Origin: an uncultured Cyclobacteriaceae bacterium
GTDB lineage: Bacteria > Bacteroidota > Bacteroidia > Cytophagales > Cyclobacteriaceae
Direction: 5' to 3'
DNA length: 64,000 nucleotides
Assembly: GCA_937958005.1 (NCBI GenBank)
Contig: CALGOB010000062.1
Span: 124,001-188,000 of the forward strand
The notes under the pieces were generated by a model. That model made no database searches and was not told the origin of the DNA. It saw only the letters and a list, made by a program, of their open reading frames with translations. Each line of letters begins with the position of its first letter. Position 1 is the stretch's first letter. A program made the position numbers and the translations under genes. Shown here piece by piece: positions 3,113-59,086 of this stretch.

Positions 3113-3160
3113 AGTCTCTTCTTTTAATTTTTTAGTTACTTCTTTATTTTCAAAAATTAA

Positions 3161-3194
3161 AGATTGACAGCAACCTAATGTTGACTGTCAATCT
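3161..3194 (-). terminator. Intercistronic hairpin with T-rich tail between atpE and atpF
   Basis: On the minus strand, just after the atpE stop, there is a perfect 10-bp stem (3161-3170 pairs with 3185-3194) with a 14-nt loop, followed by a T-rich stretch (ctttaattttt). This looks like an intrinsic terminator or an RNA 3'-end stabiliser inside the operon. A partial terminator or RNase block here would raise subunit c over the downstream b, delta, alpha and gamma subunits, in line with the many c copies needed per complex. The structure is seen in the sequence; the effect is inferred. Confidence 0.6.
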
Positions 3195-3209
3195 TTATGC
3201 ATTAGTTTT

Positions 3210-3467
<258 letters not shown>

Positions 3468-3488
3468 TTATTAAACAATAAATTCAAA

Positions 3489-4526
3489 TTAATGATCATC
3501 ATGATGATCAGCTACTGCCATACCTATGTAAAGCGAACTAAACATGGTAAATACATATGCTTGAATAGTGGCAACCAAAATTTCTATAAAATTGATTACT
3601 GTTACTACCAAAGCACTCCCAATCCCTACAGCCCAAGAATGGAATAAAAAGGTTAAACCTATTAAACTAAGTAATACAATATGCCCAGCTGTAATTGCTA
3701 CAAATAATCTGAGTAACAATGAAAAGGGTTTAGTAAAAATACCGATTAGCTCCACCACTGGCATAATTGGAATTGGTAATTTCAACCACCACGGAACACC
3801 TGGCGTGTTAAAAATATGCCCCCAATATGCTTTATTACCATTTACATTCACTAAAATGAAGGTAAGTAATGCTAAAACAATTGTAACAGCTGTATTACCT
3901 GTCAAATTAGCCGCCCCAGGTAAAAGCCCTAATATGTTTCCAAACCATATAAAAAAGAAAAGGGTCAACATATAAGGAGTAAACTTCTCATATTTTGGCC
4001 CTATATTTGGTTTAACTATTTCATCTCGCACAAATACAATAATAGGCTCAAAGAAAGATTGAATTCCTCTCGGCCCTGTATTTGCATTCTTTTTATATCC
4101 TCTTGCTACGGCAGTAAATACTAATACCATCAAAATTGCAGTCAGAAATAACGTTGCCACATTTTTAGTGATAGAAAAGTCCAAAATACTTCTTGAGCTT
4201 TCTAGGGGAACAATATGCCCATGCTCATATTTATAACCATTGTAATCTACGACCTCGTGGTGATCTCCGTAAAAATTAGCCGAAGAAAATACTTCTATTC
4301 CTCTATCTGAAGAATACAAAATCACGGGAAGGTACAAGGTTGCACCATCAAAAAAGTGCCACTCATGAGAGTCTGATATATGATGAGTGATCATCTCTCC
4401 AATATTAAACTCTTTTCCTTCTCCACCAGATGCTTTAGCGTTCGAAAAATTGAATAAAGTAACCAAAAAAATTAATAAATTGATCTTCAAGAACTTAAGC
4501 ATATTATTTCTGAATATTTTCTTCAT
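3489..4526 (-). CDS. atpB: ATP synthase Fo subunit a, long form
   Basis: Stator subunit carrying the ion half-channels. The essential arginine is visible as Arg273 in LLLRLFVAITAGHI. At 345 residues it is about 100 longer than the E. coli-type protein. The extra length is an N-terminal signal-peptide-like hydrophobic segment (residues 14-30) followed by a periplasmic, histidine-rich region (residues 40-105), then five to six membrane helices. This extended form is common in Bacteroidetes. The C-terminus is histidine/aspartate-rich (VADHHDDH). The start ATG at 4526 overlaps nothing and lies 3 nt after the preceding gene. Confidence 0.96.
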   Translation of the reverse strand: MKKIFRNNMLKFLKINLLIFLVTLFNFSNAKASGGEGKEFNIGEMITHHISDSHEWHFFDGATLYLPVILYSSDRGIEVFSSANFYGDHHEVVDYNGYKYEHGHIVPLESSRSILDFSITKNVATLFLTAILMVLVFTAVARGYKKNANTGPRGIQSFFEPIIVFVRDEIVKPNIGPKYEKFTPYMLTLFFFIWFGNILGLLPGAANLTGNTAVTIVLALLTFILVNVNGNKAYWGHIFNTPGVPWWLKLPIPIMPVVELIGIFTKPFSLLLRLFVAITAGHIVLLSLIGLTFLFHSWAVGIGSALVVTVINFIEILVATIQAYVFTMFSSLYIGMAVADHHDDH

Positions 4527-31230: not shown

Positions 31231-31338
31231 TTTTTATTTACATATATCGCCTTGATCTGTGTCCCCACAGATCACTTAAACTAAAGAAGTTGATCAGACA
31301 TGTTAGGTATACAAAATCAACCGTGATAATCTTTAATG
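31231..31338 (-). repeat. ~108-bp repeat with internal palindrome, copy B (inverted)
   Basis: Inverse copy of 22594-22701. The palindrome TGATCTGTG-tccc-CACAGATCA is at 31253-31274. It follows directly after the IS1 relic. Confidence 0.85.
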
Positions 31339-33246: not shown

Positions 33247-33783
33247 ATGAATAGTAAAAATGACTTCCTTTTGTCACTGTACAGTCATAGAGATTTTTGC
33301 GTCAATTATCTAATAAAAAAAACTAAGTGTGACCTAGATATTGCTGAAAATGTATTCATAGACTCAATCCTTGATTTGCAAGAGAAGAACATGGATTTTA
33401 ATGATATTAAGAACCTAAGATCATATCTCCTAGTAACCAATTTGAATCATTGGAAAAGGGTTTATACTAAAGTAAAAAAGCAAAATGAATCTAAAGCCCA
33501 AATAGAAATGTACTTTTATCACTACCTCCCTCACTTAAATAAAGAAGAAAATGACGATGATTTTCTTGAACAAAAACAACAGGTCATTAATAAAGCATTT
33601 CAACAATTAACCGATAAATGTAGATCTATCCTCTCTTCATTTTATTTAGAAAACAAAACCATGTCAGAAATTGCTGAAACACACGATTTCAATACTTCAT
33701 CGGTAGCCACTACCCTTAAGTATAGATGTATCAATAGGCTTAAAAAAATCGTTTTTGATTTAGATAAATTAATAAATAAGTAA
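33247..33783 (+). CDS. ECF-like RNA polymerase sigma factor, divergent
   Basis: A 178-residue sigma-70-like protein. Region 4 is clear at about 115-172 (KAFQQLTDKCRSILSSFYLE, then MSEIAETHDFNTSSVATTLK, a helix-turn-helix). Region 2 (about 10-75) is divergent but has the expected helices (FCVNYLIKKTKCDLDIAENV; LRSYLLVTNLNHWKRVY). It abuts the next gene with no spacer. Together with that membrane TPR protein it forms a probable sigma/anti-sigma pair, convergent with the TPR-CHAT gene. Confidence 0.82.
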   Translation: MNSKNDFLLSLYSHRDFCVNYLIKKTKCDLDIAENVFIDSILDLQEKNMDFNDIKNLRSYLLVTNLNHWKRVYTKVKKQNESKAQIEMYFYHYLPHLNKEENDDDFLEQKQQVINKAFQQLTDKCRSILSSFYLENKTMSEIAETHDFNTSSVATTLKYRCINRLKKIVFDLDKLINK

Positions 33784-34551
33784 ATGTCCGATTTTGAAAA
33801 AGAAAATATGATCATCATCAAATACCTAGATGGTAACTTAGACGAAGCAGAGAAAATTACTTTTAACCAGCTTATCAAAAACTCTGAGGAATTCCGTAAG
33901 GAATTAGAAAATATGGAGGTGATTATCGCTTCTTTAAAAGTTTCTGATAGAATCAGGCGTTTTAAAGAAGCAAAAGACTTCTTTCAAGAATTAGATCAAA
34001 AAAATTATAAATCTAGCAATATTAGAAAAAGCAGAGCTTACTGGACTATTGGTGCTGCTGCTACTATCGCATTCGTACTCATAGCTTACTTATTTTTGAT
34101 TCCTTCTGATAAGTCAACTCAACCAAAAGAACTTTATGCCCAGTATTTTGAAGTATTTCCCCTTTCTGAAAGCCTTAGAAAATCACAAGATTTACCTTTA
34201 GGTTTAAGCGCTTACAAAGGTGGAGATTATGAAAAGGTCATTTTTTATTTAGACAAACCTCATACTACTGATGTACTGGATGTTCCTGTGAGCATCTACT
34301 TAGCCAATGCTTTTTTAATTACTTCGCGATATGAAAAGGCAGAAGATAGACTTTCCCAAGCACTCTTGGATACCACAGATCCACTTCATAAACATTACTT
34401 GCACTGGTACTTAGGCTTAACGCAACTGGCTTTGGGTAAAACTGGCGAAGCAAATAAAACGCTCGCTAAAATTTCTCAAGAGTCTGGACCTTTTCAAATA
34501 AAGGCAAAACGGGTTTTGAGAGAAATTGACTTGCTGCCTTTAGAGAATTAG
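33784..34551 (+). CDS. Membrane TPR protein, probable anti-sigma partner
   Basis: A 255-residue single-pass protein. The cytosolic N-terminus (1-80) has IIKYLDGNLDEAEKITFNQL, typical of anti-sigma-like domains in Bacteroidetes. A membrane helix is at about 86-105 (TIGAAATIAFVLIAYLFLIP). The periplasmic C-terminus (125-250) is made of TPR-like helices (PLGLSAYKGGDYEKVIFYL; NAFLITSRYEKAEDRLSQAL; HWYLGLTQLALGKTGEANKT). The last codons (EIDLLPLEN) are written in DNA that also belongs to the 52-bp repeat family that follows. Partners are inferred: sigma factor upstream and the periplasmic TPR-CHAT protein opposite. Confidence 0.7.
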   Translation: MSDFEKENMIIIKYLDGNLDEAEKITFNQLIKNSEEFRKELENMEVIIASLKVSDRIRRFKEAKDFFQELDQKNYKSSNIRKSRAYWTIGAAATIAFVLIAYLFLIPSDKSTQPKELYAQYFEVFPLSESLRKSQDLPLGLSAYKGGDYEKVIFYLDKPHTTDVLDVPVSIYLANAFLITSRYEKAEDRLSQALLDTTDPLHKHYLHWYLGLTQLALGKTGEANKTLAKISQESGPFQIKAKRVLREIDLLPLEN

Positions 34552-34795
34552 AAATTAGAAATGCGTAATTAGGAATTATAACTTGCTGAACGGAGATTAA
34601 TTAGGAATTAGAAATGCGTAATTAGGAATTTTGACTTGCTGAATGGAGATTAATTAGGAATTAGAAATGTGTAATTAGGAATTGACTTGTGCCTTTAGAG
34701 AATTAGGAATGTGTGGTTAGAATTGACAATTACTAATTTCTAATTATGAATTACTAATTCTGAATTATGAATTTCTAATTCTGAATTATGAATTT
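34550..34795. repeat. Tandem 52-53-bp repeat array, copy cluster 1
   Basis: Three units begin near 34550, 34603 and 34655, each of the form AATTAGAAATGCGTAATTAG … TTGACTTGCTGAAYGGAGATTAATT. They are followed by an inverted AT-rich part built of TTTCTAATTCTGAATTATGAA units (about 34725-34798) that reaches the stop codon of the CHAT gene. Related arrays lie at 40457-40690, with single units at 32440, 44296 and 49709. Confidence 0.85.
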
Positions 34796-37700
34796 CTAAT
34801 TTTTCTCCGTCTTACTATATAAAAACTTCCACCCCACAAAAACCAATGCGATCAGCATAAGAAATGCGCCTGCTACATAAAAGTAAAGCCTTGAATGATC
34901 TTTGATAATGGGACTGGTATCTCCCATCACTACAAAGTTATTCCAGAAGGCTGGAGATTTTTTGAAAGGTGAGGTGTTCTCAAAAAAGGTAAGCTTTGCT
35001 TGTCTCAGTGCCTCGTCTTTTTCCATTCCTTCTGCCAGGTTTCCATAAAACAGTTTCATGATGTCACTGGATGAGCGGTCATCTGCTGCCCAGTAGCTCA
35101 TCACTACTGATGGGCAGCCTGCATAGGTAAATGCTTTTGCCAAACTGAGCGGCCCTTCTCCCTTGTACAGTTTGCCATAACCTGTATTGCAAGCACTGAG
35201 CACTGCCATGTCTGCTTTTAGGTCTAGGTCATAGATCTCAAAAGCATGAAGGAAGCCATCTCCTGTTGAAGTATCTTGAGGGTCTGGCGCAAAAGCCAAG
35301 TAAGAGTACATGGGATCTTCTGCATCTACCACCGCATGCATAGAAAGGTGTAGAATGTCATAATTATTGGCTTCTTTCTTAAAGTCTTTCTCATTGGCCA
35401 TCTCTGCAAAGAGTGATTTCCCTTGAAAATAATCCCCTATACCAGCTACTTCTTCGTCATTCCAGTCTAGGTTAGAAAGGTTTCCCCTTATGTTGCTGAG
35501 CGGTTGTTTTTTACTCCTCCTCTGAGCCAAAAGATTCGTATTTAAGTCAGAGTTATCGTCAGAGTCATAAGAAGGCGCAAAAGCCAGTACCTGCTGACCG
35601 TCTCTATTTCCTAATCCACTTTCCTCTTTGATCTGTTCTAGGAGTGATTTCGTTTTGAAAAGTGTGGTGGCCGAGTAGGCATAGGAAAAGGTATAGTCTT
35701 TGATCAGGTAGTGTAGAGAAGCATAGTCTACCAGGCCATCTCCTTTAGGCAGTTCACTGATGAGTGCATCAAAGGGCACGTGATGCAGCTGCCCATCTGG
35801 TATCACAATGATCTTTTTTGCATCTGGAAATTTATCCAGTACTGGTTTTAGCTGGCTTTCATAAATAGCATAGGCAGACTGTAAATAATCTTTGCCGTTC
35901 TGTGTCCCCTTAGAAAAAGAAGTGGCTGGGTCTAGGCTGTTCCTAAATTGACTGACTACTGAGTCTCTCAGTGGGTTTAGTTTGTGAAAAAAAGTTTCAT
36001 TTGTACTGATAGCTAAGGTATAATTTGCGTCTGCTCTTTCAGTATAATAAATTAATAATTCTGAATCGCTTAGTTTGGACATTACCTCATCTAGTTCTAT
36101 GATATTTTGACTGTTTTTACTAAATTTTATATTATATTCTTCTCTTAAATGAATATTTAATAACGTTAACAATTGCTCTCCCTCAATTAAATTTCTCCTA
36201 TATTCTTGTGTGATTCTTGAGTCTTCTGATTTACCTACTGATTTTAGTCTTTCTTTTATTCCAGAAATTCGCTTTTCAAGGTTACTCTTTCTCATCAATA
36301 AACTGTCTGGAACATGATTCATATAAAGTAGCTGCTTGTGAACTATATTATTAAATAGTATAATCGACTTTTTACTCTCAAATGAATTAAAGATATAGCT
36401 TAAATTAAAATCCCCCACTGAGTCTTTGTGTCTCTTGAAAGTAATTTTCATTAGTATATCTTCATCTAAGTTGTTTTCTATTTGGAGAAGTTGATCAATA
36501 ACCTCGCTCTCCATATCCAAAGTCATAGATTTTAATCTATGATTAAAATCAGCATATAAAAATGCATAGTTTAGGTCTAAAAAATCATGATTTTCATTAT
36601 ACTTAAAATAATGAAAACGAGATTTTAGCCAAGTAGAAATCAAAAGTTGATAACAGTTTTTTATTTGTTTTAAATTTATGGCATTATTTTTTAAGCTTAT
36701 TTCCCTGTAGTTGTAAGAAATTGCTTTATCAAGTAATGAACTAATTTTGTCATCAATTATTTTCTCATTTAGAACATAGTTACTGTAAGCATTTATAAAT
36801 GCAAGTGCTCCATTTAGTCTTTTGGAGCTAAATTCCATCGTTTTAAAATAAGACTTGTAAATACTTTCAATTTCCTTTTTGAGTGTATCAACTTCTATTG
36901 AAATCTTGGTCTTTTTCTCAATCGAATTTCTTTTTTTTTCCAGCGTAATTACTTTGAATAGTTCGTATTTATTTACCAAATTTTCGTTGGGCAGATTAAT
37001 GTTTTGTAAATATTCGTTTAAAAGAGTCACATTATTCGACACGCTATCATATTCGCTGAGCTGATAGTGCGACCAAAGCTTATACGTAAATATAAGATCA
37101 TCACTTCTTGTGAATTTTTTGTTCTCAAGTTGCTTTTGTTTCATATAAATATTCGACCACTTAATACAATTTGCATAATTCTTACTATAGTAATATCTTT
37201 TAGCGTTAGCTAAAGAGACATAATTTTTATAACTATTATACTTACTTAAAATTTCAATACTTAAATCAATATATTTTATATACGTTGCTATCCTGTTTTT
37301 TTTCAGGTAAGATTCTGCTAAGTCTCTGTATATTTCACCAAGCCTTACATTATCAGGATCTAAACTTTTAATAGCTATATCTAAATAGAGTTTTGTGTAT
37401 TGAACTGTTTTATTGAAATTACCTAAATGACTGTACGACAATGTAGTCAATCTGTAAAATTCGCCTTTCAAGTAATCATATGCCTGGTTATTTCTAGAGT
37501 GGTGTTTAAAAAGTAAAGGTCTTACATAATTCTCAAAATATGAAACGGAAGATTTTGCCCCTTTTGTTCTGAGTGTATAAAATCCTTTTAATAAATGAAG
37601 GTTAATCCAATTGACCGAATCACTACTCTCATTTTTTTTAAATAACTCTAAGCCTTTATTGGTAATTTTATAGCTTGATTTAATATCATTTTTCGCAAGA

Positions 37701-38257
37701 TAATACTGACTTAATGCCATGTAATAAAACAAGATATTCTCAGAGTCATTATCAATGCTCTTCCTTACTTTATCCAAATAGAATTTAGAGCTATCCAAAC
37801 TAATATATAAGTGTAATTCTGCTTTTTGAATAAAAGAACTATTCTCAATAAGGTTGATTTGATTGGATTTTTGAAACTTCTTGGAATAACTATTCCAGTA
37901 TTTTGCACTGTCAATGTTTAAAGACCATAAATAAGTACGTGACAACTCGTTTATACATCTTAATTTATAAAGTTTATTTTCTTTGCTGCCTGCCTTAAAA
38001 CTGATTACTTTTTGAAAAGTCTTTATTGCACTTCTAAAGTCCCTAATCTGAAAATAACTTTTGCCTAAAAGATAACTATTTGAAAAGGGGATGCTATCTG
38101 AATGATTAATTTGGTAATCATGATTAATTAATTCAATACAACCTGAATAATTGTGTTGATTATATAGTCTTTTGATACTATCAAATGATGAACCATTTGC
38201 ATGATTCATCATTGCAAAAAAACTATAAAGCAAGAAACAATAATAATACTGTTTCAA
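34796..38257 (-). CDS. Exported TPR-CHAT protein (caspase-like protease)
   Basis: An 1153-residue protein with a signal peptide (CFLLYSFFAMMNHANG), a long run of TPR-like helical repeats (about 30-600), a coiled-coil linker (640-700), a CHAT domain (about 790-1110), and a single membrane helix near the C-terminus (LYFYVAGAFLMLIALVFVGW) followed by a lysine-rich tail. The CHAT catalytic dyad is present: His974 in LHLSMHA and Cys1023 in LSACNTG, 49 residues apart. So an active cysteine protease facing the periplasm is predicted. It lies 17 nt downstream of a 69-codon GG-leader peptide gene in the same direction. It ends against a repeat array and is convergent with a sigma/TPR pair. Confidence 0.88.
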   Translation of the reverse strand: MKQYYYCFLLYSFFAMMNHANGSSFDSIKRLYNQHNYSGCIELINHDYQINHSDSIPFSNSYLLGKSYFQIRDFRSAIKTFQKVISFKAGSKENKLYKLRCINELSRTYLWSLNIDSAKYWNSYSKKFQKSNQINLIENSSFIQKAELHLYISLDSSKFYLDKVRKSIDNDSENILFYYMALSQYYLAKNDIKSSYKITNKGLELFKKNESSDSVNWINLHLLKGFYTLRTKGAKSSVSYFENYVRPLLFKHHSRNNQAYDYLKGEFYRLTTLSYSHLGNFNKTVQYTKLYLDIAIKSLDPDNVRLGEIYRDLAESYLKKNRIATYIKYIDLSIEILSKYNSYKNYVSLANAKRYYYSKNYANCIKWSNIYMKQKQLENKKFTRSDDLIFTYKLWSHYQLSEYDSVSNNVTLLNEYLQNINLPNENLVNKYELFKVITLEKKRNSIEKKTKISIEVDTLKKEIESIYKSYFKTMEFSSKRLNGALAFINAYSNYVLNEKIIDDKISSLLDKAISYNYREISLKNNAINLKQIKNCYQLLISTWLKSRFHYFKYNENHDFLDLNYAFLYADFNHRLKSMTLDMESEVIDQLLQIENNLDEDILMKITFKRHKDSVGDFNLSYIFNSFESKKSIILFNNIVHKQLLYMNHVPDSLLMRKSNLEKRISGIKERLKSVGKSEDSRITQEYRRNLIEGEQLLTLLNIHLREEYNIKFSKNSQNIIELDEVMSKLSDSELLIYYTERADANYTLAISTNETFFHKLNPLRDSVVSQFRNSLDPATSFSKGTQNGKDYLQSAYAIYESQLKPVLDKFPDAKKIIVIPDGQLHHVPFDALISELPKGDGLVDYASLHYLIKDYTFSYAYSATTLFKTKSLLEQIKEESGLGNRDGQQVLAFAPSYDSDDNSDLNTNLLAQRRSKKQPLSNIRGNLSNLDWNDEEVAGIGDYFQGKSLFAEMANEKDFKKEANNYDILHLSMHAVVDAEDPMYSYLAFAPDPQDTSTGDGFLHAFEIYDLDLKADMAVLSACNTGYGKLYKGEGPLSLAKAFTYAGCPSVVMSYWAADDRSSSDIMKLFYGNLAEGMEKDEALRQAKLTFFENTSPFKKSPAFWNNFVVMGDTSPIIKDHSRLYFYVAGAFLMLIALVFVGWKFLYSKTEKN

Positions 38258-38274
38258 TGTAGTTTAATTTGGAA

Positions 38275-38484
38275 TTAGTTAGTTGTTCTAACTGTATCAG
38301 GAAAATTCCCACAGAAACCCAAAGTACACCAAAAGGCTCCACTGTTATCTACTTGTTCATCTCCACACGCAAATACTATACTGTCATCTGCAGTACCACC
38401 CTTTATTATTCCAGACGTATCAGTATCAATCTTTGTGACAAAACTTTTGATGATTAATTTTTCTAAGTTTAATTTTTTTTTCAT
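38275..38484 (-). CDS. GG-leader precursor peptide upstream of the CHAT gene
   Basis: A 69-residue peptide whose leader MKKKLNLEKLIIKSFVTKID resembles the Bacteroidetes natural-product leader consensus (KKKLxLxKLxxxSFVT) known from class I lanthipeptide-type and GG precursors. A KGG at residues 28-30 marks a probable cleavage site. The 39-residue core is polar and acidic, has three cysteines (40, 53, 58) and several Ser/Thr, and ends RTTN. No LanB/LanC or other modification gene is seen nearby. It is the first gene of a two-gene operon with the TPR-CHAT protein. Candidate roles: substrate or trigger of the CHAT protease, or a peptide exported by the C39 transporter at 45.6 kb. Confidence 0.75.
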   Translation of the reverse strand: MKKKLNLEKLIIKSFVTKIDTDTSGIIKGGTADDSIVFACGDEQVDNSGAFWCTLGFCGNFPDTVRTTN

Positions 38485-38635
38485 GTCAATGTTTGCTTAA
38501 ATTTATTTACAACAAAGATATAAACTATTTAACTTAAAATGTTCTTATTGTTGTTGTTTTAATCTAATTTTAGATAGTATTCGTTATTAACAACAATTAA
38601 TGGAATCTTGAATTGATATACTAAAAAGTTGCATA

Positions 38636-40435
38636 ATGAAAAAAGTATTGACTGTCTTTATACTTTGGCTTACTTGCTTTGTTGCTAATTCAATGGGGTT
38701 AAATCAAAGGGAAACTGATAAAATTAAAGTTTTCAATCACCTTTATGGCTATGTAAAATACTTTCACCCCAGTGATGAAGCTGCTGAGTTGGATTGGGAT
38801 GCATTTGCTATTTATGGTTCAAAAAAGATTCTTGATTCAGAAGATAGAGATTTCATTGAAGTTCTAAATGAACTCTTCAAACCTATCGCACCAACACTTA
38901 CTCTCTGCTATGGTATACCTTCTAGTAAAATGATAAACCCTTATGGTAAATTAGATCAAAATGTAGCTGTTTTAGACACCATCCAGTGGCAGCACATTGG
39001 AAACGGGCAATTAGGAGAAAAGGATCCTTACATAAGCAAAAGGATTAAATGGTCTTCAAAGAAAAATTTTCTATTTGATAAGAAATTGAATTTTGATAAC
39101 CTTATTCGAAAAGAAATTGGATTAGGTATTTTTTGCGTTCTTCCAACGGTTTTAATCATAGACACCGAAGGTACTTATCCTAAGGCAGAGGTAAATCTTC
39201 TCGATAAATTAATTAAGGAGATGCGGATAATCAAAAACAGTTATATTCACAGTACCAACCAGAAGGAATTTTATATTGGAAATTTAATTAACTTTTGGAA
39301 TAGTATCCAACACTTTTACCCATACTTTAATGAAGTGGAGATTAACTGGGAATCTTCATTTACTGAAATGCTCCTCATGGCTTTAAAAAAGCCAAACCCT
39401 AAAAATTTCATCAAAACACTCACATGGGGCCTTTCTGCTATTGGAGATGGACATGCTAGGGTCAACAATGTCTTTTATGAGAGGTATTTTCCTCCTATTA
39501 ACATAGAATGGATTGAGGGAAAAATGATTATAACGAATACTGACCAGAAAAACATCAATTATATTGGGTCGGAAATCATTGCAATTAATGAAGTGCCTAT
39601 CCGTGAAGTAATTAAAAACTTTACTCCGCTTGTCCCCAAATCACATCTACATGAAATGATGGATGATATAGCTCAAGAGATGATTGCCTCATATGAATAT
39701 GGTAAAAGGTATGATATTATAACGGTTAAAAATAAAATTGATCAACCAGATACTCTGGTCATTCATTCTAAAACAAAGGGCTTAAAGCCTAAAAGAAGTT
39801 TGGTTTATCAGAAAAACATAAAACCCTTTCACAAAATAGATAAGTATTTATCTTATATAAATATGGATCTGCTAACTTATAATTTATTTGAAAATCATTT
39901 ACAAGAAATTAAAAACTCTAAAGCTTTAATAATAGATATGAGGGGGTATCCTGACATGGGAAATGGTATTTTTAAATTTCTAGGACACTTCATAAAAGAG
40001 AATGATTCTACAAGATGGATGTTTAAACCAAATATTATTAAGCCAGATAGGTACGATCTCTCAAGTTCTTATTCTAAATCTGGGTGGAATATAGAAAAGT
40101 TAATCCCTGCTATAAATGCCACTGTATATTTTTTGATTGACAACCATGCTCAAAGTTATTCGGAAAGCATTACAGGTTTCTTTGCCAAAATGGATCATGT
40201 AACTTTGATTGGAAGCCAAACTACAGGTATAAACGGAAACATAAACAGATTTAGATTACCAGGAGGTTATACTTATCAATACACAGGCATGAAAGTCCTC
40301 AAACATGATGGCAGCCGCTTACATGGAATTGGATTTTTACCAGATGTAGAAGTGCGTCCCACAGTTCAGGGAATTATAGATGGTAGGGATGAAGTGCTGG
40401 AGAAAGCAATAGAACTGGCGAAGAAGGAATTATGA
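38636..40435 (+). CDS. S41 family (tail-specific-like) peptidase, exported
   Basis: A 599-residue protein with a signal peptide (VLTVFILWLTCFVANSMG). The N-terminal region (25-200) has the KVFNHLYGYVKYFHPSD motif and the middle (about 205-300) the related FWNSIQHFYPYF and LSAIGDGHARV blocks of Bacteroidetes S41 enzymes. A PDZ-like segment follows (about 300-360). The S41 catalytic part has the Ser region NHAQSYSES (Ser507/509) and VTLIGSQTTGINGN. It is divergent from the precursor peptide gene with a 151-bp shared promoter region and upstream of the GG-peptide cassette, which suggests, but does not prove, a role in peptide turnover. Confidence 0.85.
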   Translation: MKKVLTVFILWLTCFVANSMGLNQRETDKIKVFNHLYGYVKYFHPSDEAAELDWDAFAIYGSKKILDSEDRDFIEVLNELFKPIAPTLTLCYGIPSSKMINPYGKLDQNVAVLDTIQWQHIGNGQLGEKDPYISKRIKWSSKKNFLFDKKLNFDNLIRKEIGLGIFCVLPTVLIIDTEGTYPKAEVNLLDKLIKEMRIIKNSYIHSTNQKEFYIGNLINFWNSIQHFYPYFNEVEINWESSFTEMLLMALKKPNPKNFIKTLTWGLSAIGDGHARVNNVFYERYFPPINIEWIEGKMIITNTDQKNINYIGSEIIAINEVPIREVIKNFTPLVPKSHLHEMMDDIAQEMIASYEYGKRYDIITVKNKIDQPDTLVIHSKTKGLKPKRSLVYQKNIKPFHKIDKYLSYINMDLLTYNLFENHLQEIKNSKALIIDMRGYPDMGNGIFKFLGHFIKENDSTRWMFKPNIIKPDRYDLSSSYSKSGWNIEKLIPAINATVYFLIDNHAQSYSESITGFFAKMDHVTLIGSQTTGINGNINRFRLPGGYTYQYTGMKVLKHDGSRLHGIGFLPDVEVRPTVQGIIDGRDEVLEKAIELAKKEL

Positions 40436-41070: not shown

Positions 41071-41268
41071 ATGAAAGAATTATCTTCATTTCAAATGGAA
41101 AAAACAGAAGGTGGTGATTTAGATTTTTGGGGAGGATTTGCCTGCGGAGGAGCTATTTTAGCAGGCGGGGCTGTTCTTGCCGGAACTGGAGGAGGAGCAG
41201 CTCCAGTAGCACTGTTTATAGCATCTCAAGGATGTGCCCATTACATAGGTTATTCACTAACTCATTAA
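41071..41268 (+). CDS. GG-leader two-cysteine peptide 1 (bacteriocin-like)
   Basis: A 65-residue precursor. The 15-residue leader MKELSSFQMEKTEGG ends in a double glycine, the cleavage site of C39-peptidase ABC exporters. The predicted 50-residue core is extremely rich in Gly and Ala with a hydrophobic centre (GGAILAGGAVLAGTGGGAAP) and cysteines at residues 25 and 55, suited to one disulfide bond. This composition is typical of class II membrane-active bacteriocins. It lies 12 nt upstream of peptide 2; a C39 transporter gene lies 4.4 kb downstream. Confidence 0.82.
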   Translation: MKELSSFQMEKTEGGDLDFWGGFACGGAILAGGAVLAGTGGGAAPVALFIASQGCAHYIGYSLTH

Positions 41269-41280
41269 ATCATTAATATT

Positions 41281-41451
41281 ATGAAAGAAATAGATATATT
41301 AGAAGCAAAGGAGGTCAATGGCGGTAGCTGGGAAACATTTGTTGACGGCGCCTGTATAGCTTATACGAGTGCAGTAGTATTCAGTATTATTCCTGCTAAA
41401 TTAGCAGGTGATGTTGCCTGTGTTGGATGGGCCATTTATAGAAGTTTTTAA
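41281..41451 (+). CDS. GG-leader two-cysteine peptide 2 (bacteriocin-like)
   Basis: A 56-residue precursor, short enough to be missed by gene callers. The leader MKEIDILEAKEVNGG is again exactly 15 residues ending in GG. The 41-residue core is amphipathic/hydrophobic (AYTSAVVFSIIPAKLAG) and has cysteines at residues 25 and 47; Cys25 is at the same position as in peptide 1. Equal leader length, aligned first cysteine and adjacency suggest a two-peptide bacteriocin or a paired signal. Confidence 0.8.
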   Translation: MKEIDILEAKEVNGGSWETFVDGACIAYTSAVVFSIIPAKLAGDVACVGWAIYRSF

Positions 41452-41471
41452 CCATTGTTAGCATTTAAGGT

Positions 41472-41678
41472 GTGGTAAAAAATATCACACCTTTACTTAT
41501 AAACACTACTAATTTGAAAAACATATTAGCAAACCCGATCAACATAATAACTTTCATCATCCTAATTAGCTATATAATTCTGCATGAATTATATCCTGAT
41601 TTTAGGTATTTACATTTTCTTCTTCCTATAGCCATATTACTTCCTCGGTTTAGAAAAAAAGAACCGAATAGTAACTAA
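41472..41678 (+). CDS. Small membrane protein, possible immunity protein
   Basis: A 68-residue frame with a GTG start 20 nt after peptide 2; a TTG at 41514 would give a shorter version. It has one strong membrane segment (INIITFIILISYIILHELY) and a second (YLHFLLPIAILLP), ending in a basic tail RFRKKEPNSN. Small two-helix basic proteins next to class II bacteriocin genes often give self-immunity. The assignment is from position and topology only; I recognise no family. Confidence 0.45.
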   Translation: MVKNITPLLINTTNLKNILANPINIITFIILISYIILHELYPDFRYLHFLLPIAILLPRFRKKEPNSN

Positions 41679-41970
41679 GAAGAGCTTCTCTGATTAGTCC
41701 TACTATGACTTACTAAATAGACTTAAAATGCTCTGTTGTCAGATTATCTCTAAATCTAAGATAACAAAGTAAGATTGGTATTCGCTTTTCTGAAACTAAT
41801 TTCAGAATGGGTTTTATAAGAATAAAATCTGAGAAATCAGATTACAAAACCTACTAAAAACAGGCACGTATTACCGTTAAAGCTCAAATGCGCCCAAGCG
41901 GTGAAGTAGCTTGTATGAATGCTTAATCATTTTAAAAGGAGTCTGTCATACTGACTCCTTTTTCTTATAA
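41679..41970. other. Spacer with a possible decayed peptide gene and a terminator
   Basis: A short open stretch ends with KAQMRPSGEVACMNA and a stop (about 41876-41925); its SGEVAC resembles AGDVAC of peptide 2, so it may be the remnant of a third peptide, but the upstream part is lost. The same DNA (AAAGCTCAAATGCGCCC) recurs at about 44261-44277. A terminator closes the spacer. Confidence 0.35.
41934..41963 (+). terminator. Intrinsic terminator ending the GG-peptide transcript
   Basis: Perfect 10-bp stem (AAAAGGAGTC / GACTCCTTTT) with a 9-nt loop and a T-run. It separates the peptide genes from the ABC exporter genes, so strong peptide expression can be set apart from the exporter. Confidence 0.85.
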
Positions 41971-42600
41971 TTGCCAATTATGAATGCGCTAATCCTCCTG
42001 AAATATCACTATAAATTCAAGTTAAAGGCTCTCAGATCAGAAAAAGATTATTTACTTAAGATTATTCTGATTTTATTCTTCCTAGGGTTTATTGTTCTTT
42101 TCACATTTATTCTTAAAGCACTCATTCCTGCAAATGACCTTGTTTTATTGAAAAAAATTTACCTGCCTATCATAGGAATGCAAGTTATCTCCCTTATTAA
42201 CAGTTCTGGTTTATCTGGTTCTATTTATCCGTACCTTAAATTACCTATTAAGAAATTACCTTTATTAACCCTGATAGTTTTTGAAGAGATACTGCTAAAA
42301 AAAATTCTTTTTATCACCTCTACCTTGTGTATTGCTCTTACAATAAGCACCAGTATCTTGCTATCGACAAATCTTTTTTTGCTTTTGATAATAACCTCAG
42401 CCCTAGGGTTTCTTTTTAAAGGCATAGACATGAATGAATTCATAAGAAAAGTTTTATTATTCGTTATAGGTTTAGCTTTATTAACCGTGGTTTTTTATTG
42501 CCCTTTTGAAAAACTCAACTTTACTCTCATTTTATTGTCAGTCTTTATCTTACTTTTTATCCAATTCAAATCAATACCCATCAAATCCTACTTAAAATGA
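41971..42600 (+). CDS. Polytopic membrane protein, ABC exporter subunit candidate
   Basis: A 209-residue protein with about five to six membrane helices and a short basic N-terminus (LLKYHYKFKLKALRSEKDYL). No family is recognised with certainty, but its size, topology and tight coupling (stop overlapping the next start as ATGA) to another membrane protein and then an ATPase point to the transmembrane part of an ABC-2-like exporter. Bacteroidetes lineages often encode such split permeases beside peptide genes for immunity. Confidence 0.6.
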   Translation: MPIMNALILLKYHYKFKLKALRSEKDYLLKIILILFFLGFIVLFTFILKALIPANDLVLLKKIYLPIIGMQVISLINSSGLSGSIYPYLKLPIKKLPLLTLIVFEEILLKKILFITSTLCIALTISTSILLSTNLFLLLIITSALGFLFKGIDMNEFIRKVLLFVIGLALLTVVFYCPFEKLNFTLILLSVFILLFIQFKSIPIKSYLK

Positions 42601-43301
42601 TCAAACACCTATTAGGAATAGAATTAAAATCCAGTCTAAGAAATAAGCGATTAAAAGAATTACATTCCACTCTTTATTTGTTAATTATCATTAACCTGAT
42701 TTTACCATGGTTACTCTCTAATGATATCTACTTTACAGGTGATAACAAGATTTCTGTCGCCCTTCAAGCCATTGGTTGGTGTTCTTTCCTTGTCTCTATT
42801 GCTTATTCTTCTTTGAGTTTTAATTGGCAAGGAAGTTACTTAACGGCTCTTCTAAAATTTCCTAGTGGAATAAGTACAACTTTCTTCACGGTCATACTAT
42901 TACCTTATCTATATGCTGCACTTATTATGCTGATCATATTTCCCAGTTATTATTTTCTATACCCACAAGTAATTAGATGGGCAGTTACTTTTAGTTTATT
43001 CAATATTGGGGTTTTATTACCAGCTACACTTGTCACCAGTATATATCACAATAACAAAACCATTGCTCTTCACAACTCAAGGTTTTTAAACTTTCAAGGT
43101 ATCAAGCTGCCAAATGTTTTATCTATTATGATTCCTATTTTCTTTGGAGGGATCACACTGCTTATTTCAAAAATTTTATACAAAGATGTGCATCTACTAT
43201 TAAATTGCCTATCAATTATTGGGTTAATGGCCTTTTTAGTCCTATTGAAACCTCTGAAAAAAACTTTCAGTACGAACCTTACAAAAAAACTAAATTATTA
43301 A
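42597..43301 (+). CDS. Polytopic membrane protein, ABC-2-like permease
   Basis: A 234-residue protein with a basic start (IKHLLGIELKSSLRNKRLKE) and six predicted membrane helices. The start overlaps the preceding stop by 4 nt, and the next gene starts 2 nt after its stop. The first segment, an amphipathic helix followed by helices in pairs, is usual for ABC-2 permeases. Probably pairs with the 41971 protein and the ATPase at 43304. Confidence 0.62.
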   Translation: MIKHLLGIELKSSLRNKRLKELHSTLYLLIIINLILPWLLSNDIYFTGDNKISVALQAIGWCSFLVSIAYSSLSFNWQGSYLTALLKFPSGISTTFFTVILLPYLYAALIMLIIFPSYYFLYPQVIRWAVTFSLFNIGVLLPATLVTSIYHNNKTIALHNSRFLNFQGIKLPNVLSIMIPIFFGGITLLISKILYKDVHLLLNCLSIIGLMAFLVLLKPLKKTFSTNLTKKLNY

Positions 43302-43303
43302 CC

Positions 43304-43963
43304 ATGCTCTATTTAAAAAACCTTATTAAAGAATTTTCAGAATTCAAATTGCATATTGAGGAATTAACAATCAAAGAAGGGGAAACTGTAGCGCTTATTG
43401 GAAACAATGGCGCAGGTAAAACAACGCTGTTAAGATGTCTGTTAAACCTAATCAGTTTTGAAAGTGGAAGTATTGAAATTTTCAATCATTCTATTAAGGA
43501 AAATGAAGAGTGGAAAACAAAAGTCAATTCTTATCTGGATGAACGTTTTTTGATAGATTTTTTAACGCCTAAAGAATTTTTAAAATTTACCCAAAAAGCT
43601 TATAATCAGCCTGAAAACACTGAGTTATCTGACTTTCTTGAACCAGAATATTACCTTAAATTAATAAGGGAATTATCAACCGGCAATAAACAAAAGGTGG
43701 GTATATTGTCTGCCCTAGTAACCAACCCAAAATTATTAATCCTAGACGAGCCTTTTGCTAATCTTGATCCCCGCTCAAGATACAGGTTGTCAGCATTGTT
43801 AAAAAACAGCAAGCAAACACAGATAATTTCTAGTCATGATTTGACTGAAGTAATTGAAATTGCTGACAGAGTAATCTTGATGGAGAAAGGAAATATTATA
43901 AGAGATGTCACTTGTGATAATGAGACTATTGATCAGCTTAATCAATATTTCGAGAATAGCTAA
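43304..43963 (+). CDS. ABC transporter ATP-binding protein
   Basis: A 219-residue ATPase starting at MLYLKNLIKEFSEFKLHIEE; an earlier in-frame ATG at 43205 overlaps the permease gene by 97 nt and adds a non-homologous N-terminus. Motifs: Walker A GNNGAGKTT (about 34-42), Q-loop region, signature LSTGNKQKVG, Walker B LLILDEPFANLD and the switch histidine in IISSHDLTEV. The helical domain is short, typical of drug/peptide (CcmA/DRA-like) exporters. Third gene of the exporter operon, which may give immunity to the two GG peptides. Confidence 0.9.
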   Translation: MLYLKNLIKEFSEFKLHIEELTIKEGETVALIGNNGAGKTTLLRCLLNLISFESGSIEIFNHSIKENEEWKTKVNSYLDERFLIDFLTPKEFLKFTQKAYNQPENTELSDFLEPEYYLKLIRELSTGNKQKVGILSALVTNPKLLILDEPFANLDPRSRYRLSALLKNSKQTQIISSHDLTEVIEIADRVILMEKGNIIRDVTCDNETIDQLNQYFENS

Positions 43964-44048
43964 ACTTTATTCTCCTACTACGCTGATACCAAGATGTTTC
44001 ATTTGATGTTCATATGGTCACTCTCACCCAATTATTCAACTTAATAAA

Positions 44049-44194
44049 TACTGGTATCCAATTAAATCTGAAAATGAACAAAAAGACACTTATAGATCAA
44101 ATAAAGAGGTGTTTTTCAGGATAAGGAAAAACCTGTCTTTATTTGATCCAGTAGCATTTTCTTTTCTATTTTCAAATTTAATTGGATACCAGTA
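44049..44194. mobile_element. 146-bp TIR element with a long internal hairpin
   Basis: Ends are near-perfect 26-bp terminal inverted repeats beginning TACTGGTATCCAATTAAAT. Inside, perfect 13-bp arms (44095-44107 and 44136-44148) enclose the 26-nt core at 44108-44133 that contains GTTTTTCAGGATAAGGAAAA and is identical to 30595-30620. No coding capacity; a non-autonomous element of the same family as 30316-30681. Confidence 0.85.
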
Positions 44195-44462
44195 GTTTTC
44201 AATAGAAAAAAGAACTGAAAGATTTCTAACACTAATAATTACAAATCCCACTAAAAATCCACTAAAGCTCAAATGCGCCCCAATCGAATTTACATTATAC
44301 AATTACGCATTTCTAATTCTTAATTAATTTCGATCAACAAGTCAAAATAGACCAAACCAACTGTTCATATTACTCCTTTTTCCTACTCATAAGGTAGAAC
44401 AGTAGTTATGAGCTCCATCATACCTACTAAAAAAAGATCATTTAAAATATAAAATTCATTCA
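44195..44462. other. Spacer between the TIR element and the exporter genes
   Basis: Together with 43964-44048 and the TIR element this makes a 498-bp gap. It holds the second copy of AAAGCTCAAATGCGCCC (about 44261-44277) with related flanking DNA, and at about 44296-44340 one inverted unit of the 52-bp repeat family. No gene is seen. Confidence 0.5.
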
Positions 44463-45119
44463 ATGAGCCTATCATTAACTTATAACAACCTCAACAAGCA
44501 TGCACTGTTCTTTCTACTAATTCTCAGTTCCATTTTATCCATGTTTATTCTTCAGGAGTTTATTGTCTCTGAGGATGTTTATTTTGATCATTTTAGTGAG
44601 TCTTTACCATTGGATAGAGTAACTGAAATTCTTCACTTTCAGGAAAAATGGTGGTGGGTGAATTATCTGACTGTTCCTGTAATCTATCTAATCAAATTTT
44701 CTTTTCTGGCTTTATGGCTATTGACAGGCACCGTATTTATGGGCTTTAATACCTCCTATAAAAAGCTTTTCAATGCTACAATCCTCGCAGAATTTGTGGC
44801 TTTTATACCCATATTTACCAAGTTGATATGGTTCGGTTTTATAAAAACAGATTTTAACCTTACTGAAATTCAGCTTTTCAACCCCTTCTCATTGATCAGC
44901 TTTTTCGATATTGAGACTTTGGAACCTTGGCTGGTCTACCCTATACAATCAGTAAGTCTTTTGGAACTGGTCTACATCAGCGTACTGGCTTTTGGGATTA
45001 GGGAAGCTATCAGACAGGATTATGATACTTCCTTAAGGTTTACCTTCATCACTTATTTGACAGGTCTAGTTGTATGGATCATTTTTGTCACTTTCTTGAC
45101 CATTAACCTTATCAGCTAA
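44463..45119 (+). CDS. Polytopic membrane protein of the peptide export cassette
   Basis: A 218-residue protein with five to six predicted membrane helices and a conserved-looking aromatic stretch (HFQEKWWWVNYLTVPVIYLI). I recognise no family. It begins a tight operon: the thioredoxin-fold gene starts 1 nt after its stop and the C39 transporter overlaps that gene. The fixed linkage suggests a role in peptide maturation, export or immunity. Confidence 0.6.
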   Translation: MSLSLTYNNLNKHALFFLLILSSILSMFILQEFIVSEDVYFDHFSESLPLDRVTEILHFQEKWWWVNYLTVPVIYLIKFSFLALWLLTGTVFMGFNTSYKKLFNATILAEFVAFIPIFTKLIWFGFIKTDFNLTEIQLFNPFSLISFFDIETLEPWLVYPIQSVSLLELVYISVLAFGIREAIRQDYDTSLRFTFITYLTGLVVWIIFVTFLTINLIS

Positions 45120-45120
45120 T

Positions 45121-45633
45121 ATGAGAAAAATATATTTATACAGTTTAGTTGTCACAGTTGTCACCGCTACTATCTACATGATCTTCCAAAGTGTTTTCAA
45201 ACTCAACCTACAATCACAGGGTAATCAAAACACCAAAACACTATCAGTCCTAATAGGCCAATTAAAGGATATGGATAAATCACAGCCTTTGAACAGTTAT
45301 CTCAAACCATCTCTTTTGGTTTACTTCAACAGTGAATGTGACTATTGTCAGCGCCAGATAAAACTAATCAATGATTCACCTGAAATCCTACAACAGTTTC
45401 AGCTAATACTGGTTTCTTATCAGGACATAGCTGAAGTTAAAAATTACTTGACCAAACACCTTGCAGTTGCAAAAACTGGTTACAAATTCTATCAGGTGGA
45501 GCCAGATAAGGTGCTGGCAACTTTTGGTAAAACGAGCCTTCCCCAGCTATACATTTATGAAAACAATCTGTTAAAAAGCACCTATAAGGGTTTTACTAAG
45601 GCCCATATAATCCTGAAAACCGCTAGCCTATGA
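45121..45633 (+). CDS. Membrane-anchored thioredoxin-fold protein
   Basis: A 170-residue protein with an N-terminal membrane anchor (about 5-22) and a periplasmic thioredoxin-like domain. The redox motif is CDYC in LVYFNSECDYCQRQIKL (about residues 64-80), and a cis-proline-like TSLPQLYIY lies near 140. It probably forms, breaks or isomerises disulfides. Both GG peptides in the locus have two core cysteines, so peptide oxidation on export is a natural inference. The stop overlaps the start of the C39 transporter gene by 4 nt. Confidence 0.78.
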   Translation: MRKIYLYSLVVTVVTATIYMIFQSVFKLNLQSQGNQNTKTLSVLIGQLKDMDKSQPLNSYLKPSLLVYFNSECDYCQRQIKLINDSPEILQQFQLILVSYQDIAEVKNYLTKHLAVAKTGYKFYQVEPDKVLATFGKTSLPQLYIYENNLLKSTYKGFTKAHIILKTASL

Positions 45634-47819
45634 AGTTAAATAATACCTATAAAAAAACATTTAAACGACAGCATGGACAGTCCGATTGTGGTGTTGCCTG
45701 TCTCCTTTCCATCATCTCATTTCATGGAGGATCAGAAACACTGGATCATATACGTCAGTTAAGTGGCACTACCAAAAGAGGAACCAGTATGCTGGGGCTA
45801 CAGCAAGCAGCTGGCCAACTAGGTCTGTCAGCCAGTGGGTTGAAAGCTGACAGTATTGAAAATTTACATGAACTGGACCAGCCAGCCATACTCCATGTGA
45901 TCATGGAAGGATACCGGCAACATTATGTGGTATTTTATGGATTTGCAGGAGATAACTTGGTCATAGGGGATCCTGCAAAAGGAGTTGAAATCTGGACAAT
46001 TGATCAACTGAAAATGGTCTGGCGGGATAAAATCTTGCTATCCTTAAAACCTAGTACCCACTTTAAAAAATCTGATCAAAAAAACAGCCAATATGAGGTC
46101 ATTATCAATTGGATAAAAGAAGACTTTAATGTACTAGTAGCTGCCCTGTTTTTAGGTGCGGTTATCTCCATTTTCAATCTATCAACAGCCATATTTACCC
46201 AAAAACTAATAGATGAAGTACTCCCCTCACGGGAGATTTCTGTGCTCGTAATAAGCTTAGCCTTATTTGGCGTTCTTTTGATTTTTAAATCCCTCTTAAG
46301 TTACCTAAGATCAAATTTTCTGTTGACCCAGAGTAGGGATTTTAACATCAGGATGGTTGGTTTTTTCTTTAAGTCTCTGATCAGGTTGCCTAAACCTTTT
46401 TTTGATTCCAAGAAATCAGGGGAAATGATTGCTAGAATGAATGATACCAGACGGATCCAGTCAGCTGTCAGTAACTTAATAGGGAACCTGATATTGGAAA
46501 TTCTGGTACTCACTATTTCAATAGTTGCCCTTTTGGTCTACCAATGGCAAGTAGGGTTATTGGTTATCGTAATCGCACCTTTATTCACCATCTTACATTT
46601 TAAATTTCAAAAACCAATCTTGAAACATCAAAAAGCAACGATGTCTTCCTATGGGCTAAACGAAAGTAATTACATAGATGTGATCAATGGTATTTCTGAA
46701 GTAAAGACTTCTTCTAAGCAGAATTTATTTGAAAAAAGTACAATGGCATTTTATCGTAATTTTCAGGAAAATTCTTTTTCTCTTGGGAAAGCTCAGGTCA
46801 ACTTCGGTTTGATTGCGGAACTCATTTCCATTGTTTTGACACTGTCTGTAATCGGGTATACCTCTTCTGTTTATTTACAGGGAAGTATGGCCTTGGGGAC
46901 GTTGATTGCCTGTTTTACACTTTTAGGATCCATCACACCTTCCATCATTCAGATTACTCTGTTCAATATCCAAATACAGGAAGCAAAAGTAGCTTTTGAA
47001 AGGATGAACGAATTTTCTGGCCTTGCCATAGAGGACTTACAAAAAGGAGATCACTATCCATTAAATGCAAAATGTATTTTAGTAAAAAATATATCTTTTC
47101 ATTATCCAGGCATGCTTGACTTACTAAAAAATGTGGATTTGGAAATAAAAAAAGGAGAGTTTAGGGCGCTGTTAGGTGAAAGTGGAGAAGGAAAGAGTAC
47201 ATTGATCCAATTGATCCAAAGGTTCTATCAACCTCAGTATGGTGAAATTTGGTTGGATATGGTTCCTATTGAAACACTTAATATGGGCAGCTATCGAGAA
47301 AGGATCTCTGTAGTTCCCCAAGATATCAAGATTTTCAACCATAGTTTATTTTTTAACGTGGTTCTTTCAGAAGATCCTGCAACCTACGAAAGGTTTCTTA
47401 AATGGTCTGAAAAATTTGGATTCGATGCCTATTTCAAAATATTTCCACAAGGTTATGGGACTCTACTGGGAGAAGAAGGCACCAATATATCAGGTGGTCA
47501 ACGCCAAATAGTAGGACTGGCAAGGGCTTTGTTTAGAAACCCTGATTTTTTGCTGCTTGATGAAAGTACCTCTGCCATGGATAAAAAAACAGAATCTTTT
47601 ATCATCGATATACTGAACCAATTTAAAAGGGATATTGGCATATTTATGATCACCCATAGGGTAACTACCGCCTCCAAATCCGATTATATTTATTTACTGG
47701 AAAATGGTTGCATAACCATGGAAGGAGCTCCAAAAGAATTTCTTAAAAGCAAAAATATGTTTAGTGATTTTTATAAGGAATTTCATATTACATCTTCAGC
47801 CCTCTTGACCTTCAATTAA
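45630..47819 (+). CDS. C39-peptidase-containing ABC transporter (bacteriocin exporter)
   Basis: A 729-residue fusion that trims and exports GG-leader peptides. The N-terminal C39 peptidase is complete: Gln14 and catalytic Cys20 in RQHGQSDCGVACLL, His98 in HYVVFYG and Asp114 in VIGDPAKG. A six-helix ABC membrane domain follows (about 160-435), then the ATPase with Walker A GESGEGKST (about 516), signature ISGGQRQ, Walker B FLLLDESTSAMD and the switch histidine in ITHRVT. The two GG peptides at 41.1-41.5 kb are likely substrates. No HlyD-family adaptor gene is found beside it, although one is often needed in Gram-negative exporters. Confidence 0.95.
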   Translation: MKLNNTYKKTFKRQHGQSDCGVACLLSIISFHGGSETLDHIRQLSGTTKRGTSMLGLQQAAGQLGLSASGLKADSIENLHELDQPAILHVIMEGYRQHYVVFYGFAGDNLVIGDPAKGVEIWTIDQLKMVWRDKILLSLKPSTHFKKSDQKNSQYEVIINWIKEDFNVLVAALFLGAVISIFNLSTAIFTQKLIDEVLPSREISVLVISLALFGVLLIFKSLLSYLRSNFLLTQSRDFNIRMVGFFFKSLIRLPKPFFDSKKSGEMIARMNDTRRIQSAVSNLIGNLILEILVLTISIVALLVYQWQVGLLVIVIAPLFTILHFKFQKPILKHQKATMSSYGLNESNYIDVINGISEVKTSSKQNLFEKSTMAFYRNFQENSFSLGKAQVNFGLIAELISIVLTLSVIGYTSSVYLQGSMALGTLIACFTLLGSITPSIIQITLFNIQIQEAKVAFERMNEFSGLAIEDLQKGDHYPLNAKCILVKNISFHYPGMLDLLKNVDLEIKKGEFRALLGESGEGKSTLIQLIQRFYQPQYGEIWLDMVPIETLNMGSYRERISVVPQDIKIFNHSLFFNVVLSEDPATYERFLKWSEKFGFDAYFKIFPQGYGTLLGEEGTNISGGQRQIVGLARALFRNPDFLLLDESTSAMDKKTESFIIDILNQFKRDIGIFMITHRVTTASKSDYIYLLENGCITMEGAPKEFLKSKNMFSDFYKEFHITSSALLTFN

Positions 47820-58470: not shown

Positions 58471-59086
58471 AAATATTCCTAAAACATGAACTTAAGTTTC
58501 GACCAGAAGAAGCTTTTACGGGTTAAAAATCTTCAAACTCCAATTATGCATTCGGTTTTTAAGAGAAAATCATAAATAACTATTAAGTAGTAGAGTTTAT
58601 CACGGCAGAATGACTATGGTTGCTTTGTTATCTTTTTACCCAAGTTTATCAACAAATAAGTACGAATTCATATTTACTTTGACAGACTCAGAAAAGTGAA
58701 ATTTAAAAGGAGTTTTATCTATACAAAAACCAACCGTGATAATGTCTAATGCTTAAATTATTATAGTGAATTGGAAATTAGGATTTTACCCGCGTTATGC
58801 ATTAGAAATTTAAATTGGTATAAAAGGAAATTTATCGATCTAGTTATAGCCTATAGCCAAGTATTCATTATTGCTCAAAACAGCAATCACAAGCACACAA
58901 AACTCACTGTGGTTGAAGATAACGGAAAACATCGGTTTCCCATAAATTTTCTAATGAAAGAGTGTTCCATTTAGTAATGATTTCCATACAATATTAATTT
59001 CATACAAACTCTTTATCATTTATTATCAATATTCAGGTAGCTATAACTCATTATAAAACCGTAATTAGGTGATATATTTGCCCCAT
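58471..59086. other. 616-bp spacer with fragments of three repeat families
   Basis: No gene is supported. About 58541-58592 matches the right part of the 27354-27542 element in inverse; 58720-58750 matches one end of the ~108-bp repeat (ACAAAAACCAACCGTGATAA); 58784-58807 is another solo terminus (ACCCGCGTTATGCATTAGAA). The promoter of rbfA must lie in the last ~100 bp. Confidence 0.55.

Follow-up and report, generated by a model that had tools for sequence, protein, structure and literature searches.

The window analyzed here, a stretch of 64,000 nucleotides on contig C62 of an uncultured Cyclobacteriaceae genome (5.49 Mb in 267 contigs), carries on its minus strand a short peptide gene (38275-38484; 69 aa, ATG start; assigned from its reading frame and its NF038180 match) and, 17 nt downstream of it on the same strand, the gene of a TPR-CHAT protein (34796-38257; 1153 aa, TTG start; assigned from PF12770, an alignment of the dyad residues and an AlphaFold2 model). 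Both reading frames lie where the first-pass annotation had placed a 69-codon gene with a GG leader ahead of a CHAT gene. As the gap is too short to hold much of a promoter of its own for the CHAT gene, the two genes are likely co-transcribed. A -7-like promoter box (TATCTTTG; 38513-38520, minus strand), read from the sequence 28 nt upstream of the peptide's ATG, appears to fit the Bacteroidetes -7 consensus, TAnnTTTG. Convergent with the CHAT gene and adjoining it are two plus-strand genes, one for an ECF-type sigma factor (33247-33783; 178 aa; TIGR02937, sigma70-ECF, E=1.2e-13, over the cut-off) and one for a transmembrane TPR protein of 255 aa that resembles an anti-sigma factor (33784-34551). 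On the far side, a gene for an S41-family peptidase-like protein (38636-40435, plus strand; PF03572, E=1.8e-13) diverges from the peptide gene across 151 nt; it is a possible, as yet unproven, candidate member of the module. A Pfam scan of seven neighboring proteins found no gasdermin among them.

The precursor peptide and the predicted exported protease

The peptide consists of a leader, MKKKLNLEKLIIKSFVTKIDTDTSGIIKGG (residues 1-30; 38395-38484), which ends in Gly-Gly, and a core, TADDSIVFACGDEQVDNSGAFWCTLGFCGNFPDTVRTTN (residues 31-69; 38278-38394), with three Cys, five Thr and two Ser. Its leader matches NF038180 (leader_pinensin; E=5.7e-8, 32.5 bits, cut-off 24), which makes the peptide, by its leader, a predicted pinensin-family lanthipeptide precursor. 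The leader, described earlier as one of natural-product type, is of a kind already catalogued and is not novel. The host genome encodes 40 leaders over the NF038180 cut-off; they are conserved (SF[VIT]T ... KGG), while their cores are divergent, usually containing Cys, Ser and Thr. These precursor genes are scattered and nearly all stand alone, most of them beside unrelated genes. Among the 59 genomes searched, the host included, seven carry the pinensin leader, and all seven encode a LanC homolog; LanC is missing from three leader-less genomes (G001, G002 and G013), and in a further one (G011) LanC-like genes occur with the leader absent.

How might such a precursor be matured? There is no LanB or LanC gene beside the window's peptide gene, as had been noted from the window, but this holds only locally, since an operon on contig C10 encodes HlyD, LanB and a split-off LanB C-terminal domain, a LanC that bears a PqqD-like tail, and a C39-peptidase ABC exporter. 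Within the 17 kb read around this operon there is no precursor gene. As the precursors are mostly stand-alone and the one LanB/LanC/C39-exporter operon lacks a local precursor, it is likely, and the simplest reading of the gene content, that a single enzyme set serves the scattered precursors in trans.

The TPR-CHAT protein has an N-terminal signal-like stretch, a TPR superhelix, a CHAT domain (PF12770; E=3.9e-53, residues 794-1113) with His974 and Cys1023, and, in the AlphaFold2 model (pLDDT 83.9, pTM 0.82), a C-terminal transmembrane helix (1122-1152). The dyad is invariant in all 113 aligned CHAT proteins, and 103 of the 113 have, by a simple hydropathy rule, a hydrophobic N-terminus as well as a transmembrane segment at the C-terminus, in agreement with the proposal of an exported protein with an intact His974/Cys1023 pair. 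By domain and dyad it is a predicted protease of the CHAT family, whose members act in defense and cell death. In the fold search the model came closest to Csx29 (Z 30.8 over 520 residues, rmsd 10.9), followed by separase, the transmembrane anti-sigma factor DdvA (Z about 21) and the gingipains. The TPR part also matches the Rap and NprR pheromone receptors, a likeness that lends little support, since TPR folds are common.

In the adjoining 255-aa protein, model and fold search place N-terminal helices at residues 1-75, a transmembrane segment at 84-103 and a TPR region at 114-249, and all 54 homologs have a single transmembrane segment at a similar place. No curated anti-sigma model matched this protein over its cut-off; its position and architecture make it a candidate anti-sigma factor. 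The C-terminal helix of the CHAT protein and the convergent sigma and anti-sigma-like genes had not featured in the first-pass annotation.

Recurrence of peptide genes at CHAT loci

Fourteen CHAT matches were found in the host genome, and three of these genes, on contigs C259, C62 (the window) and C239, have a leader peptide gene 13, 17 and 36 nt upstream, respectively, on the same strand. About 0.012 such pairs would be expected by chance under uniform placement and about 0.10 under intergenic-only placement, with 11 CHAT genes taken to have usable upstream DNA and the upper value obtained by a rough eight-fold correction. With a leader over the NF038180 cut-off and three of 14 CHAT genes paired against 0.01-0.10 expected, the pairing is not a product of chance. 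Nor are the three pairs recent duplicates, as the CHAT proteins are only about 25-36% identical to each other and the peptide cores look unrelated. Besides CHAT and another precursor, the one gene that follows a leader peptide this closely on the same strand resembles, by eye, an IS200-type transposase. When CHAT loci of GTDB and of the wider family were scanned with a leader HMM, no pinensin-type pairs appeared; a fourth pair, with a gap of 205 nt, was found later in another genus of the same family (G301), where it is visible only with longer flanks.

The pairing recurs in other genomes in two forms, one narrow and one broad. Within the window's family the strict pinensin/CHAT pair occurs only sporadically, as the peptide is missing upstream of the near CHAT homologs C72, L255 and L263, an absence of the kind that the first-pass annotation had named as counting against the pairing. 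In the first of these, a host contig, an S41-like gene occupies the peptide's place, 19 nt upstream of CHAT. On contig C239, neither a sigma nor an anti-sigma-like gene was found in the stretch read. The broad form involves a second class of GG leader at Bacteroidota CHAT loci. In 60 loci from GTDB, 37 short GG-leader reading frames lie within 800 nt upstream of CHAT, of which 35 are encoded on the strand opposite to it (p=1e-8), compared with nine in the 86 kb of intergenic sequence elsewhere (p=1e-16); both p values overstate independence, since the loci are related. The search pattern was self-made and loose, and it missed the peptide on C239 (TYKGG), so that these counts are approximate. 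About 29 of the 60 loci have a convincing GG-leader gene next to CHAT and divergent from it, all of them in one CHAT clade of 43, and many CHAT loci have no recognizable peptide. The association is systematic in one Bacteroidales clade. Two matches, in L224 and L241, were judged spurious by eye and left out of the count.

The CHAT-linked peptides of this second class often have short, acidic cores, such as SRDLDMIVEDLD, and occur at two loci (L176 and L198) as tandem copies with an unchanged core. Of seven leaders tested, one passes the bacteriocin_sig model, and others give weak ComC-type or lantibiotic-type matches. At several loci (L180, L196 and L245) the peptide gene is followed on its own strand by genes for a transmembrane TPR protein, for a protein with a HisKA domain and for a C39 exporter; such an exporter is nearby in 11 of the 60 loci. 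Pinensin-type and other GG leaders may differ in the job they do.

Sigma factor genes neighbor CHAT in 40 of the 60 loci, as do anti-sigma-like genes in 40, which points to a signaling output. In Sunxiuqinia and relatives, the peptide/CHAT intergenic regions share a conserved box, GGGT[TC]ACCTTT, and in most cases a GAAT-like element stands about 14 nt further on (with its spacer, GGGT[TC]ACCTTTT-N14-GAAT); many Bacteroidales loci carry this bipartite promoter, GGGTTACC...GAAT. The pattern occurs 26 times in 783 kb. Of these sites, 16 lie between peptide and CHAT and point to the peptide gene, and eight immediately precede the sigma gene of the same locus set, 24 in all. One of the remaining two, in L183, reads into a frame that begins MIKYTNE, comparable to the sigma factor start MINYTNE in L186. 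Since the same bipartite promoter stands before both genes, the sigma factor probably drives its own gene and that of the peptide. Another sequence is common to the sigma and peptide upstream regions of L219 (score 24.5 against a null maximum of 12.5). A shared motif was not found in several other CHAT loci, nor was a shared promoter found within the window. On host contig C124, which encodes the nearest relative of the window's CHAT protein and whose sequence is cut 294 nt upstream of that gene, a block upstream of sigma and CHAT is not specific evidence, its motif having 67 copies genome-wide. The similarity between the sigma and CHAT upstream regions of L265 was set aside, as the two genes probably share a single divergent region that contains an inverted repeat.

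A possible envelope switch and competing explanations

What could a peptide do beside such a protease? Recurrence in the host, in the family (once in G301) and, with the other leader class, at about 29 of 60 Bacteroidota loci gives the peptide and the exported CHAT protease the look of a functional pair, as the first-pass annotation had suspected. The operon could form the input side of an envelope signaling switch. A pinensin-type precursor, probably modified by the LanB and LanC of contig C10, would be exported by the C39 transporter encoded there, which would also remove the leader at Gly-Gly. The TPR-CHAT protein would likewise leave the cytoplasm and be held in the membrane by its C-terminal helix; its TPR superhelix, then in the periplasm, would recognize the mature peptide, whereby the caspase-like protease would be turned on or off. 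A likely target, by analogy with Csx29 and Csx30, is the neighboring transmembrane anti-sigma-like protein, whose cleavage would free the ECF sigma factor. What the sequences show directly is the gene order and its recurrence, the protein architecture, the conserved dyad and, in relatives, the shared promoters; that the peptide is matured in trans and bound, that cleavage occurs and frees the sigma factor, and in which direction the system responds, we infer. That the CHAT protease, in the periplasm, is under the control of an exported peptide and releases the sigma factor by cutting the anti-sigma-like protein seems to us as likely as not. In the Bacteroidales versions, where promoter sharing is seen, the freed sigma factor would drive its own gene and that of the peptide, closing an autoinduction loop. 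Only tentatively, and with odds somewhat against it, do we extend this to a Bacteroidota-wide system in which a GG peptide gates a membrane CHAT protease, a transmembrane anti-sigma factor is cut and the freed sigma factor autoinduces sigma and peptide genes. Such a system would give Gram-negatives a route of peptide autoinduction and would be related to the Csx29-Csx30-sigma cassette of Craspase while doing without CRISPR, a view offered with the same reserve. The recurring peptide-protease-sigma neighborhoods suggest an undescribed form of peptide sensing at the cell surface and of gene switching in Bacteroidota.

The tight co-directional operon would suit a CHAT protein that serves as a maturation protease, trimming the exported lanthipeptide or removing its leader as a dispersed part of the pathway merely regulated by the sigma genes; lanthipeptide proteases are described as often unclustered (PMC8960859). 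We consider this unlikely, since the C39 exporter-peptidase in the genome already covers the GG site, about 37 of the 40 precursors have no CHAT alongside, and CHAT/sigma modules occur in many genomes without a pinensin-type peptide. The scatter of 40 precursors, most by unrelated genes, would fit an ordinary antimicrobial or other lanthipeptide that is co-regulated with CHAT without physical interaction, yet three tight pairs where 0.01-0.10 are expected, and a separate Bacteroidales association with another leader class, render this rather unlikely as well.

Could the module instead belong to conflict or cell death, with CHAT as a self-directed protease and the peptide as its inhibitor or trigger? 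The CHAT and separase/caspase fold, and the general roles of CHAT proteases in defense and cell death, would accord with this, but the four module proteins have no PADLOC match, the predicted location is the envelope, and the widespread sigma/anti-sigma-like linkage better suits regulation, which leaves such a system improbable. Finally, a genome so dense in precursors, and a strict pair missing at several near homologs, might suggest a neighborhood without functional link; given the recurrence at 13-36 nt in three divergent paralogs and the pair in another genus, this is scarcely believable.

The preferred reading, that of a peptide-controlled envelope protease releasing a sigma factor, has its closest precedent in Craspase/CASP of type III-E CRISPR systems, where cleavage of Csx30 by the TPR-CHAT protease Csx29 lifts the inhibition of the ECF factor CASP-sigma (PMC10028731). 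There, too, a TPR-CHAT protein is linked to an ECF sigma factor and a candidate sigma inhibitor. In the module described here, however, export and membrane anchoring are predicted for the CHAT protein, the place of the inhibitor would be taken by a transmembrane TPR protein that is not recognized as Csx30, and the neighbor is a peptide gene rather than a CRISPR effector. A second precedent is DdvS/DdvA of Myxococcus xanthus, in which DdvA is a transmembrane anti-sigma factor (PMC4374960; structure PDB 8rot) whose signal is stated to be unknown. Like the module's CHAT protein, DdvA is an envelope protein with a TPR-CHAT-like fold, and it controls an ECF sigma factor; but it is itself the anti-sigma factor in one polypeptide, whereas the module has separate genes (33784-34551 and 34796-38257) and a peptide gene in addition. 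In the open-licence literature, a search for CHAT domains with ECF sigma factors returned only the Csx29 paper, and one for CHAT proteases with lanthipeptides returned none. The parts are known, then, and the combination of peptide, CHAT and sigma, not found in that literature, is a variant of the CHAT-ECF sigma linkage.

On the peptide side, the NF038180 leader, the Gly-Gly site and the LanB/LanC/C39 set also present in the host are those of pinensin-family class I lanthipeptides, but the window's precursor gene is distant from those of the enzymes and shares an operon with a CHAT gene. Some of the Bacteroidales leaders match bacteriocin_sig or ComC-type models, the latter known from quorum signaling or bacteriocin induction, and C39 exporters and HisKA proteins are found near these peptides too; the module differs in that its candidate receptor is a TPR-CHAT protease of the periplasm, which would act through an ECF sigma factor. 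If this holds, a large group of envelope CHAT proteases would gain a concrete input, protease, target and output, the lone lanthipeptide precursors of Bacteroidota genomes would have a use, and the sigma-release pathway of Craspase would have an envelope counterpart. The shared promoter in the Bacteroidales loci renders the loop directly testable.

Further candidate partners of CHAT proteases

The CHAT gene at locus L142, on contig C72 of the window's genome, is preceded at a distance of 19 nt by an S41-like gene. As this gene is similar to the S41-like gene of the window (38636-40435), an S41-like protein is suggested as a second partner type for this CHAT subclade. At the sigma-neighboured CHAT loci L182, L212, L217, L222 and L224, the upstream position is held by a protein of about 400-480 residues instead of a GG-leader peptide, with a protein of about 800 residues coming next; this is possibly another type of CHAT partner.

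Other peptide loci and genomic expansions

At a distance of 2.6 kb from the gene of the 69-residue peptide lies what looks like a bacteriocin-type cluster (41071-47819), in which two further small GG-leader reading frames (41071-41268 and 41281-41451) precede genes for membrane proteins, for an ABC ATPase and a thioredoxin-like protein, and for an ABC exporter with a C39 peptidase (45630-47819). Pairs of pinensin-type peptides, in convergent orientation, directly follow the 3' end of a CHAT gene, or of a fragment of such a gene, at L120 (contig C130 of the window's genome, 5373-7516) and at L082 (contig C117 of genome G020, 2720-3606). In G014, a relative genome in four contigs, lanthipeptide-like precursors have expanded to a very great extent, with at least 109 matches to the pinensin-type leader versus only two to CHAT. 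The 3.7 Mb genome G023 yields 72 CHAT matches, fragments among them, many of which reside in one array on its contig C190.

Repeated sequences

Allowing up to two mismatches, CAAAACCNATCGTGATAAT occurs in 67 copies across the window's genome, including 31312-31330 and 58725-58743 of the window, while the reversed-pattern control had no matches there; it is either an interspersed repeat or a regulon motif. In the window, the stretch that separates the CHAT gene from the convergent anti-sigma-like gene (34560-34800) is taken up by AT-rich units in repeated copies (aattaggaattagaaat...).
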